Positions 32,240 to 35,940 of a stretch of 64,000 nucleotides of DNA are shown here, one piece after another; position 1 is the stretch's first letter, and every line of letters starts with the position of its first letter. The notes under the pieces were generated by a model. The model was not told the DNA's origin. It did not search any database and was given only the letters and a program-made list of their open reading frames with translations. This DNA is from Sediminicoccus rosea (lineage in GTDB: Bacteria; Pseudomonadota; Alphaproteobacteria; Acetobacterales; Acetobacteraceae). The DNA is taken from assembly GCF_033547095.1 (NCBI RefSeq), contig NZ_CP137852.1, positions 4,675,001 to 4,739,000 of the forward strand. The letters run 5' to 3'. The translations under genes and the position numbers were made by a program.

Positions 32240-32938
32240 TCAGACACCCGCGCCCGTGCCGAACACCTCGTCCCAGGCCGCCATCAGGGCCGCATCCGCC
32301 TCTTCCATCGTCGCCAGGACGCCCAGGTCATGCAGGCTGGTCACGCCGTGCTCGGCGATGCCGCAGGGGACGATGCCGCCGAAATGCGCGAGGTCCGGCT
32401 CCACATTCAGCGCGATCCCGTGCCAGGAGACCCAGCGCGTGACGCGCACGCCGATGGCGCCGATCTTGAACTCGCCCAGGCCCGGCTTCACCACCCAGAT
32501 GCCGACACGCCCTTCCCGCCGCTCACCGCGGATGTTGAAGCGATCGAGCGCGCGGATCATCCATTCCTCGAGGCCATGCACATAGGCGCGCACGTCGCGC
32601 GGCGGCACGCGGCCATGGCGGCGCGTCAGGTCGAGCATCACATAGGCGGTGCGCTGGCCCGGCCCGTGATAGGTCCATTGCCCGCCGCGGCCCGCCGCGT
32701 AATGCGGGAAGCGCTGCTCGATCAGCTCCTCGGGCCGGGCGCTGGTGCCGGCGGTGTAGCTCGGCGGATGCTCCACCAGCCAGACCGTCTCGGCCTCGCT
32801 TCCCGCGCGGATCGCGGCCACGCGGGCTTCCATCGCGGCCAGCGCCTCGGGATAAGGGGTGAGGCCCTCGCTGATCCGCCATTGCGGTTCTGGCCCCGAA
32901 GGATTTTGGTCTGGGTCGGTTGAACAGGGCGGGATCAT
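32240..32938 (-). CDS. lipB: Octanoyl-[ACP]:protein octanoyltransferase LipB
   Basis: 232 residues. It moves octanoate from acyl carrier protein to the lipoyl domains of 2-oxoacid dehydrogenases and the glycine cleavage H protein, the first step of lipoate synthesis. The signature [20 protein letters not shown] is followed by catalytic Lys158 in [10 protein letters not shown] and Cys192 in GGIVPCGI. The ATG at 32938 lies only 20 bases from the divergent tRNA gene and has no clear ribosome site. There is no other start that keeps [15 protein letters not shown]. The puc operon lies downstream on the same strand. Confidence 0.95.
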
Positions 32939-32948
32939 GCGCTAGGAC
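32920..32948 (+). promoter_or_regulatory. Predicted promoter of tRNA-Leu
   Basis: TTGAAC (32920-32925), a 17-base spacer and TAGGAC (32943-32948) are well placed for a transcript starting a few bases before the tRNA at 32959. The promoter covers the first codons of the divergent lipB gene. Confidence 0.4.
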
Positions 32949-32958
32949 GCTCTCGTCT

Positions 32959-33044
32959 GCGGTCGTGGTGGAATGGTAGACACGCCAGCTTGAGGTGCTG
33001 GTGGGGGAAACCCCTTGGAAGTTCGAATCTTCTCGACCGCACCA
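32959..33044 (+). tRNA. tRNA-Leu (anticodon GAG)
   Basis: 86 bases including an encoded CCA end. The acceptor arms are GCGGTCG and CGACCGC. The anticodon stem CCAGC/GCTGG encloses the loop TTGAGGT, giving GAG, which reads CUC and CUU. A long variable arm (GGGG AAA CCCC) confirms the leucine class II type. The T-loop is TTCGAAT. A 119-bp tandem repeat array begins 16 bases after its 3' end. There is no integrase gene or repeated tRNA tail, so it does not look like an integration site. Confidence 0.96.
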
Positions 33045-33060
33045 TATTCTTACCCTCAGA

Positions 33061-33558
33061 CGCCGGGCGCCCACTCCGTGGGCTTGGCTTCGCCGCGCCA
33101 CGGGCCTCCCCGACATCGCAGGCCATTGGGCGGCGCCGGCCGCCATGCGGCCGGATGCACGCCCTCTTAGACCCCCGGACGCCGGGCGCCCACTCCGTGG
33201 GCTTGGCTTCGCCGCGCCACGGGCCTCCCCGACATCGCAGGCCATTGGGCGGCGCCGGCCGCCATGCGGCCGGATGCACGCCCTCTTAGACCCCCGGACG
33301 CCGGGCGCCCACTCCGTGGGCTTGGCTTCGCCGCGCCACGGGCCTCCCCGACATCGCAGGCCATTGGGCGGCGCCGGCCGCCATGCGGCCGGATGCACGC
33401 CCTCATAGACCCCCGGACGCCGGGCGCCCACTCCGTGGGCTTGGCTTCGCCGCGCCACGGGCCTCCCCGACATCGCAGGCCATTGGGCGGCGCAGGCCGC
33501 CATGCGGCCGGATGCACGCCCTCTTAGACCCCCGGACGCCGGCCGCCCACTCCGTGGG
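33061..33558. repeat. 119-bp tandem repeat array, 4.2 copies
   Basis: Four full units start at 33061, 33180, 33299 and 33418, and a partial fifth runs from 33537 to about 33558. Units 1 and 2 are identical; units 3 and 4 each differ by about one base. Each unit can fold into several hairpins, the best being CCGGCCGC/GCGGCCGG with a CAT loop; others are CCCAC/GTGGG, GGCCT/AGGCC and CCCGG/CCGGG. As 119 is not a multiple of three, the open frames through the array shift at each unit and are unlikely to be genes. The array fills most of the 585-base gap between tRNA-Leu and maeB. Confidence 0.93.
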
Positions 33559-33629
33559 GCGGGATGCGCGAGCGGTTGCGGCTGCGCCCATTACCTCGCA
33601 TCTTGCCGGAGGTTCAGAAAGGGTTCGCC

Positions 33630-35897
33630 ATGGACGATGATTTCCGCCGCGCCGCGCTCGACTACCACCGCTTCCCGCGGCCGGGGAAACTCGCCATCGA
33701 GCCCACCAAGCGCATGGCCTCCCAGCGCGACCTGGCGCTGGCCTATTCCCCCGGCGTCGCCGCCGCCTGCGAGGAAATCGCGGCCGATCCCGCCAAGGCC
33801 TGGGACTACACCACGCGCGGCAACATGGTCGCCGTCATCACCAATGGAACGGCGGTGCTGGGCCTGGGCAATATCGGCCCGCTCGCATCCAAGCCGGTGA
33901 TGGAGGGCAAGGCTGTCCTCTTCAAGCGCTTCGCCGGCATCGATTCCATCGATATCGAGGTGAAGGCCAACGAGATCGATCATTTCGTCGAGGTCGTGGC
34001 CGCGCTGGAGCCCAGCTTCGGCGCCATCAACCTGGAAGACATCAAGGCGCCCGAATGCTTCGAGATCGAGGCCCGGCTGCGCGCGCGGATGAACATCCCC
34101 GTCTTCCACGATGACCAGCACGGCACCGCCATCATCGTCGCCGCTGCCGTGCGCAACGGGTTGCTGCTGCAGGGCAAGAACCTCGCCGATGTGAAGCTGG
34201 TGAACACGGGCGGCGGGGCGGCGGCGCTGGCCTGCCTCGACCTGCTGCTGACCATGGGCCTGAAGCGCGAGAACGTGACGGTCTGCGACATCGAGGGCGT
34301 GGTCTACAAGGGCCGCCCCGGCCTGGATGACACCAAGGCGCGCTACGCGCAGGACACCAGCGCCCGCACCCTGCCCGAGGTGCTGGACGGCGCGGATGTG
34401 TTCCTGGGCCTCTCCGCGCCCCGCGTGCTGAAGGGCGAGTGGCTGCACAAGCTGGCGCCCAAGCCGCTCGTCCTCGCCCTCGCCAACCCCGACCCCGAGA
34501 TCCTGCCCGAGGCGGTGCGCGCCGCGCGGCCGGATGCGATCGTGGCGACGGGACGGACCGACTACCCGAACCAGGTCAATAACGTCCTCTGCTTCCCCTT
34601 CATCTTCCGCGGCGCGCTGGATGCGGGCGCCACCACGATCAATGAGGCGATGAAGGTGGCCGCGGTCGAGGCCATCGCGGCCCTCGCCCGCGTGGAGGCG
34701 AGCGAGGTGGTGGCCGCGGCCTATGGCGGCACGGCGCCGGTCTTCGGGCCCGAATACATCATCCCCAAGCCCTTCGACCCGCGCCTGATCCTGGAGGTCG
34801 CGCCCGCGGTCGCCAAGGCCGCGATGGACAGCGGCGTGGCCCGCCGTCCCATCGCGGATTTCGAGGCCTATCGCGCCGATCTCAGCCGTTTCGTCTTCCG
34901 CTCCGGCAACCTGATGCGGCCGGTGCAGGAATCCGCCCGCCGCCGGCCCGCGCGGATCGTCTTCGCCGAGGGCGAGGATGAACGCACGCTGCGCGCCGTG
35001 CAGACCGTGCTGGACGAAGGCACGGCCGAGCCCATCCTGGTCGGCCGCACGTCGGTCATCGAGGCGAAGCTGAAGGCGCTCGGCCTGCGCATGGCGCTCG
35101 GTCAGTCGGTGCGCGTGATGCATCCGGAGGAGCAGCCGGAGTTGTTCGCGCCCCTGGTGGAGCTCTACCAGTCCAAGGTCTGCCGGCGCGGCATCACGCC
35201 CGCGGCGGCCAAGCGCCGCGTCGCCTCCCGACCGACGGTCGTGGCCGGCCTGCTGCTGGAGGCGGGCCACGCCGATGCCGCCATCGTCGGCGGCCATGGC
35301 GACTGGATGAGCGAGTGGGAACACGCGCTCGGCATCATCGGCGCGCGCGCCGAGGTCAGCCGCGCCTATGCCTGCACCGCCGTCATCACGCAGAACGGCA
35401 CGCTCTTCTTCGTGGATACGCATCTGCTGGTGGACCCCAGCGCCGCGCAGATCTCCGAGATGACGCTGCTCGCGGCCGAGCAGGTGCGCAACTTCGGGCT
35501 GACGCCCAAGGTGGCGCTGCTCAGCCATTCCTCCTTCGGTGCCTCGGGCGCGCCCTCGGCGCGGAAGATGCGCGCGGCGCTGAAGCTGATCCACGCCGCG
35601 GCACCCGATCTCGAGGTGGATGGCGAGATGCACGCGGATGCCGCGCTGGTGCCGCTGATCCGCGCCCGCGCCGTGCCGGATTCGCCCCTGGAAGGCACGG
35701 CCAATCTGCTGGTCTTCCCGAACATCGATGCGGCCAACATCGCCTTCAACCTGGTGAAGGCAGTGGCGGATGGGCTTCAGGTCGGGCCCATGCTGCTGGG
35801 GATGAACAAGCCCATCCATGTCCTCACGCCGAGTGTCACGGCGCGCGGCATCGCGAACCTCGCTGCCGTCGCCGGCAGCCAGGTCGCGCGGGGGTAA
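33630..35897 (+). CDS. maeB: NADP-dependent malic enzyme with phosphotransacetylase-like domain
   Basis: 755 residues from the ATG at 33630, with GAAAGGG upstream. The N-terminal ~430 residues are the malic enzyme: [51 protein letters not shown] and the nucleotide-binding [15 protein letters not shown]. The C-terminal ~320 residues resemble phosphate acetyltransferase ([18 protein letters not shown], then [13 protein letters not shown]) and usually serve allosteric control by acetyl-CoA. It turns malate into pyruvate, CO2 and NADPH. It follows the repeat array and ends before a hairpin. Confidence 0.95.
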
Positions 35898-35919
35898 CAC
35901 CCAGGAAGGGCCTCCGGCG

Positions 35920-35940
35920 GCTGGGGCCTCAAACCCCAGC
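35920..35940 (+). terminator. Hairpin between convergent maeB and the DUF1254 gene
   Basis: GCTGGGG and CCCCAGC form a perfect 7-bp stem with a 7-base loop, 22 bases after the maeB stop and just beyond the end of the convergent DUF1254 gene. It could serve both directions. There is no T-run. Confidence 0.45.

Follow-up and report, generated by a model that had tools for sequence, protein, structure and literature searches.

A tandem array behind a tRNA-Leu gene as a probable local amplification of an interspersed palindromic repeat of Roseococcus and its relatives

The 119-bp tandem array directly behind the tRNA-Leu(GAG) gene of Sediminicoccus rosea is built from a unit that belongs to a genome-wide family of interspersed, non-coding, structured repeats, and the array as a whole is very likely a locally amplified copy of this family, which occurs in Roseococcus and in some of its family relatives. 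The unit is probably a REP/BIME-like repeat that was once mobile. The tie of the array to tRNA-Leu is not specific, and the array, though of a common type, has an unusual anatomy. No described family was found to match, and searches of the literature on intergenic palindromic repeats, REPs and MITEs (including that on Acetobacteraceae, Roseococcus, Roseomonas and Rhodospirillales) listed no account of it. Positions below are those of the window, i.e., the whole stretch of 64,000 nucleotides that was analysed; positions of matches to the covariance model R1 are genome (G000) coordinates minus 4675000.

In the window, TRF delimits the array to 33052-33558, with a period of 119, 4.3 copies, 98% matches, 0% indels and a score of 979, and the second-ranked tandem array has a score of 81. 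The preliminary description had reported a near-perfect array starting at 33061, 16 nt past the tRNA; that spacing is right, and the true start of the first element lies 9 nt earlier, 7 nt past the CCA of the tRNA (Table 1). Its near-identical units with a partial fifth were also recovered: between hairpin 1 and hairpin 3 the cores of copies 1-3 are identical, copy 4 carries one change, and a stub of a fifth copy closes the array. The three complete later copies (from 33171) depart from copy 1 mainly at the 5′ end, where ACCCTCAGA is replaced by ACCCCCGGA. Several strong hairpins had been noted in each unit, and this is borne out by an MFE of -66.5 kcal/mol (z -2.5) on the plus strand and of -71.6 kcal/mol (z -2.0) on the minus strand. 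A repeat protein and a CRISPR array had both been dismissed, and rightly: the period is no multiple of 3, and the linkers repeat together with the unit, with no unique spacers. The upstream gene is one that we take to be lipB-like, and the downstream malic enzyme-like gene, presumably maeB, has a start ATG at 33630 that is conserved among relatives. ORFs of 85-326 aa, which are likely spurious, cross the array on both strands, e.g., 32523-33503 (-) and 32995-33408 (+).

Table 1. Features of the array and its surroundings in the window.
Feature	Position	Strand	Basis
Upstream gene, ORF of 232 aa	32240..32938	-	ORF list
tRNA-Leu(GAG) gene, CCA encoded	32959..33044	+	ARAGORN; RF00005, 54.6 bits
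T-rich lead TATTCTT, from tRNA 3′ end to first element	33045..33051	+	sequence; logo of 69 loci
Element copy 1, 5′ end ACCCTCAGA (family consensus GCCCTCARR)	33052..33156	+	R1, 96.0 bits
Hairpin 1 of copy 1, GCCCAC-TCC-GTGGGC	33069..33083	+	helix 1 of covariation analysis
Hairpin 2 of copy 1, arms 33091-33096 and 33130-33135, variable middle between	33091..33135	+	helix 2
Hairpin 3 of copy 1, CCGGCCGC-CAT-GCGGCCGG	33136..33154	+	helix 3
Linker 1, 14 nt	33157..33170	+	sequence; joint survey
Element copy 2	33171..33275	+	R1, 87.1 bits
Linker 2, 14 nt	33276..33289	+	sequence; joint survey
Element copy 3	33290..33394	+	R1, 87.1 bits
Linker 3, 14 nt, 1 base differs (T/A)	33395..33408	+	sequence; joint survey
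Element copy 4, 1 base differs	33409..33513	+	R1, 82.3 bits
Linker 4 and truncated fifth copy, 45-nt stub in all	33514..33558	+	TRF; sequence
Downstream gene, malic enzyme-like	33630..35897	+	ORF list; relatives' loci; maeB tree

A search of the genome and of its relatives for the 119-bp unit, as the preliminary description had proposed, brought out the interspersed family, which is absent from that description's own reading. In the 5.14-Mb genome, the unit gave at least 55 matches with 40 of 184 first-look candidates scored. An alignment (A1) and the model R1 were built from 22 copies, and R1, with scores computed for 150 of 20324 candidates, gave at least 93 matches at E ≤ 0.01; the 22 model-building rows are among them and match by construction. 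These 93 matches group into 74 places, 9 of which proved to be head-to-tail arrays when their flanks were read out. The elements are about 80 or about 105 bp long, contain three hairpins and follow a common consensus: GCCCTCARRCGCCGGGCG, hairpin 1 with a changing stem, CTTGGCTTCG, one of several 3′ halves, hairpin 3 and GGAT. The subtypes are modular (A, B and C halves). The terminal inverted repeats have the consensus GCCCTC/GAGGGC, from which many copies deviate (logo of flanks), a T-rich lead stands before most copies (logo of 69 loci), and the 5′ flank often reads TTGAY. Several roles had been considered for the array on its own. A structured-RNA or protein-binding array alone leaves the other 73 places unexplained. 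A read-through terminator array for the tRNA finds no support: no intrinsic terminator (GC stem plus T run) is found in 32900-33700 (0 sites), and a sister species retains the tRNA and maeB without the array. There is likewise no consensus match to a promoter at the array, and Rfam finds no match to the unit, the tRNA being the sole hit in 32940-33640 at E ≤ 1, so that a known RNA family was rejected.

Head-to-tail arrays stand at 8 further places in the same genome, mostly with similar linkers. Counting joints within 60 nt, which are not independent within one array, 32 are head-to-tail and 1 is in the opposite orientation (19 and 1 in this genome, 13 and 0 in 56 pattern-chosen stretches of relatives). 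Linkers measure 12-14 nt at 21 of the 32 joints, the remainder being 6-9 or 27-41 nt, and linkers of 12-14 nt are present in 8 of the 9 arrays of this genome. Their sequences vary from array to array, and the 14-nt linkers of the window differ from the usual 3′ tail of the elements. In Rubritepida flocculans, four tandem copies have a period of 144 and 39-nt linkers (L072:5019-5555). The arrays might arise directly from single-strand (Y1, IS200/IS605-like) or rolling-circle transposition, a fixed tail of 12-14 nt joining one copy to the next. This would suit the hairpin near each end of the element (end-to-hairpin distances in A1 and A2), the T-rich 5′ flank, and joints whose length stays constant while the linker sequence changes from array to array. 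However, the REP-associated Y1 transposase (PF01797) is absent from this genome in a search whose controls worked, it is found in just 1 of the 21 genus genomes (G124, contigs 10, 14 and 19; L198-L200), where one match carries an internal stop, and no new insertion was seen, and direct formation by transposition is improbable. A search for IS91-type Y2 enzymes gave no match, with the positive controls silent as well.

The same site was followed in relatives with the N-terminal part of maeB as a probe, which matched in 19 of 21 genus genomes; the other orthologous maeB loci examined were 17 in number, each for up to 1.5 kb upstream. Among the loci that retain tRNA-Leu right before maeB, or whose sequence starts within the array, there are 3 copies with a period of 105, the third degraded, in G134 (MAG E1_MAG_00066), at least 4 copies with a period of 117 in G127 (Roseococcus sp. 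SDR), one copy and a damaged one in G128, and one copy of another subtype in G135; G130 has no element, and neither has G131, where a remnant, CCCTTCAGATG, is the most that may be left. The tRNA and maeB are separated by a further gene in G124 and G121, and at the other 9 loci no tRNA-Leu was found within the upstream sequence examined (up to 1.5 kb). Two contigs of SDR have an end within an array: contig 22 starts inside one that leads up to maeB, and contig 2 runs out inside one behind the tRNA; we take them to be opposite ends of a single array. Arrays do break assemblies, which speaks for an assembly artefact, a possibility that the preliminary description had raised; but the array of the window lies inside a single 5.12-Mb contig, and the arrays that SDR and E1_MAG_00066 carry at this site differ from it in period, which leaves an artefact barely credible.

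Copy numbers of 0, 1, 3 and at least 4 in sister species, with differing periods, indicate that the expansion took place independently in each lineage. The window copies have a hairpin 1 (GGCGCCCACTCCGTGGGCTTGGC) that occurs, among 298 loci, at the tRNA-maeB site only (in this genome, SDR and E1_MAG_00066), which suggests that a lone ancestral copy at this site was probably amplified separately. The core identity is 98.8-100% among the copies of this genome and at most 93% between species, the low within-species identities in this comparison stemming from the contig-end stub and the degraded copy. With 4.3, 3, at least 4, about 1.5, 1 and 0 copies across the related genomes, and periods of 119, 105 and 117, the instability, recent expansion and homogenisation that had been supposed from a single genome are supported. 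The variation of copy number and period by species, together with homogenisation inside a genome, would also be given by a simple minisatellite, in which GC-rich sequence beside the tRNA happened to be duplicated with nothing wider behind it. This explanation is contradicted because the unit has family membership, with head-to-tail arrays at those 8 further places, and is highly improbable.

The family was found in all 21 Roseococcus genomes searched, in very unequal copy numbers. With up to 150 candidates scored per genome and several low-count genomes incomplete (including the one with 1), the matches at E ≤ 1e-3 number at least 90 in this genome, at least 126 in SDR, 69 in G125, 67 in G134, 5 in G131, 4 in G132 and 1-44 in the others. 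A broader sample from the family to which the genus belongs gave matches at E ≤ 1e-4 in 16 of 120 genomes, representing 11 of 96 genera, and a pattern scan of named genomes returned 56 stretches in Roseococcus, Rubritepida, Roseomonas, Falsiroseomonas and Acetobacteraceae or Rhodospirillales MAGs. In a maeB tree (a single gene, midpoint root), G131 groups inside the clade of this genome, SDR, G134, G128 and G133. No element was found in 1.2 of its 4.9 Mb searched, its whole genome gives 5 weak matches, and none of the 20 places, out of 74, that map to it with both flanks holds an element. Its position inside an element-bearing clade and its empty mapped places suggest, on the strength of one gene tree, a wholesale loss of elements in G131. 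Element-free orthologous sites were found, but the sequence on their 3′ side is almost always so diverged that neither a target-site duplication nor a clean pair of empty and filled sites could be made out. A second palindromic repeat lies just after maeB at 35911-35928 (+), with the core CCTCCGGCGGCTGGGGCC, and at 12 further places in the genome. Its exact cores number 13 in this genome, 207 in G128, 343 in G133 and 59 in G131, with none in 14 of the 21 genus genomes; G128 and G133, rich in this repeat, have fewer elements of the window type.

The elements sit at gene boundaries, as judged from gene calls by a simple codon-usage caller trained on the window. Among the 73 of 74 places that could be classed, 49 are codirectional, 21 convergent and 3 divergent gaps; the 3 of 73 compare with 129 divergent gaps among 480 gaps of 60-400 nt in 1.2 Mb of one sister genome (binomial p 4e-7). 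Of the 51 places where the 5′ neighbour points towards the element, 38 have a stop codon 0-11 nt from the element 5′ end. When the neighbour has the opposite direction, a start codon lies 6-8 nt from that end at 15 of 23 places, with GAGGGC, the reverse complement of GCCCTC, at Shine-Dalgarno distance, and this end may act as a Shine-Dalgarno sequence. Whichever way the neighbour points, GCCCTC is preceded by T-rich sequence, and the T content of the last 12 coding bases is 23% in flush genes versus 14% in other genes. Intrinsic terminators were rejected as a general cause of the T-rich lead at protein genes, since a stem with 7 or more pairs and no mismatch precedes it at only 3 of the 74 places.

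Two places far from any called gene follow RNA genes of this genome, alpha-tmRNA with an array of four type-C copies directly behind it (L130:1185-2020) and 6S RNA with an array of two (L137:1321-1713). Across the genus genomes, 9 of 19 tmRNA loci and 7 of 19 6S RNA loci have an element behind the RNA gene, usually preceded by a long hairpin and a T-run (by eye). Behind 6S RNA in several of these genomes, the hairpin is long, near-perfect and of changing sequence, followed by the T-run and then the element (L281-L285, L293; by eye), and most 6S genes that have no element show no such long hairpin (by eye). In this genome, with Rfam applied to the window and 20 loci and ARAGORN to the window and 60 loci, all 3 places with an RNA gene detected directly upstream are arrays, versus 6 of the 71 others. 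The idea that RNA genes attract arrays is not pressed, because most 6S sites of relatives that have an element hold one copy.

The stems of the element covary. In type A the covariation score is 0.195, whereas sliding the partners gives no more than 0.031, with 33 cells changed on both sides versus 12.8 in shuffles; in type C it is 0.387 versus at most 0.075, with 54 cells versus 16.3. The rows compared are paralogues of one genome with a few from relatives, so that these counts are inflated by relatedness, and template switching at imperfect palindromes could yield some covariation without selection. The strong covariation, the T-enrichment that reaches into coding ends and the fixed placement could equally mean a selected function. 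One such reading is that the elements are RNA modules maintained by the host, the T-rich lead and the three hairpins forming a 3′ end for mRNAs, tRNA-Leu, tmRNA and 6S RNA (a transcript stabiliser, processing or termination zone whose strength arrays would add to), and in reverse a leader that ends in a Shine-Dalgarno sequence. It would accommodate the covarying stems, the flush placement, the avoidance of divergent gaps, the T-rich codons upstream and the elements behind tmRNA and 6S RNA, with the hairpin and T-run that usually precede them. Against it, a sister species has 5 weak matches instead of 90-126, the terminator consensus is missing at the array, a stem before the T-rich lead is as rare as noted above, and presence at a given gene is patchy across species; host maintenance is possible but on the unlikely side. 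It is doubtful that all the parts hold together in one. On such a reading, a gene-boundary family would provide transportable 3′ ends and 5′ leaders, its T-rich lead and covarying hairpins settling after stop codons and after tRNA, tmRNA and 6S genes, and in reverse supplying the following gene with a Shine-Dalgarno sequence; a single-strand or rolling-circle process would multiply it head-to-tail with a constant joint of 12-14 nt, and one sister species would have purged it almost entirely.

The reading preferred here, local amplification of an interspersed repeat, would run as follows. The family would have spread in an ancestor as a REP/MITE-like non-autonomous element whose transposase has since been lost or is not recognised; this mobile origin is one that we infer. 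Copies would have persisted where genes stayed intact, after stop codons and RNA 3′ ends or before start codons, where the GAGGGC end could serve as a Shine-Dalgarno sequence. From the moment that two units stood in tandem, the array could grow, shrink and be homogenised through unequal recombination or through slippage of replication at the hairpins. These processes, presumably now the main source of change in the family, would have made the tRNA-Leu array. An effect on the host, if any, would be that of a generic 3′-UTR hairpin block on mRNA ends or processing, with no service to tRNA-Leu.

What looked like a curious minisatellite is thereby turned into a family open to study, with 1 to at least 126 matches per genus genome, orthologous sites with and without elements, and arrays of unequal length at one conserved tRNA site. 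It allows testing of whether the intergenic palindromes of bacteria benefit their host or only themselves, of the origin of head-to-tail arrays and of what the shedding of nearly all copies costs a genome. It also carries a warning for annotation, in view of the spurious-looking ORFs in the array and the arrays at contig breaks.

Several known systems resemble the family in part. Tandem minisatellites or VNTRs consist of near-identical head-to-tail units whose copy number varies between relatives, as here, but the present unit belongs to an interspersed family. MITEs and non-autonomous elements of the IS200/IS605 type are short, non-coding and present in high copy, and the elements share these traits, along with a T-rich 5′ flank and a GCCCTC/GAGGGC inverted repeat in the consensus, from which many copies deviate; in contrast to them, a partner transposase was not found here. 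BIMEs are several palindromes joined by short linkers, in arrays of repeated units and with modular subtypes, which recalls the palindromes, linkers, unit arrays and A, B and C halves seen here, whereas in the present arrays the whole three-hairpin unit is repeated in one orientation with 12-14 nt linkers. Unlike with REPs that have a RAYT, no Y1 transposase (PF01797) was found in this genome. REPs of the GTAG and CGTC superfamilies, according to Di Nocera et al. (2013; PMC3733652), are single stem-loops of 20-40 bp, against 80-105 bp and three hairpins here. The paper reports CGTC repeats as missing from Acetobacteraceae and lists CCTC as a variant of the CGTC tag (PMC3733652); the present elements lack the GTAG/CGTC tag, their ends being GCCCTCARR and ...GGAT, with no 8-9 bp stem after CCTC. 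Head-to-tail REP dimers are described there as absent, under-represented or negligible, head-head or tail-tail ones predominating (PMC3733652), whereas the joints here are 32 to 1 in favour of head-to-tail. In other respects REPs are alike: they are short, GC-rich, palindromic intergenic repeats with heterogeneous stems that lie in unidirectional or convergent gaps near stop codons, and some of their families have no matching transposase (PMC3733652).
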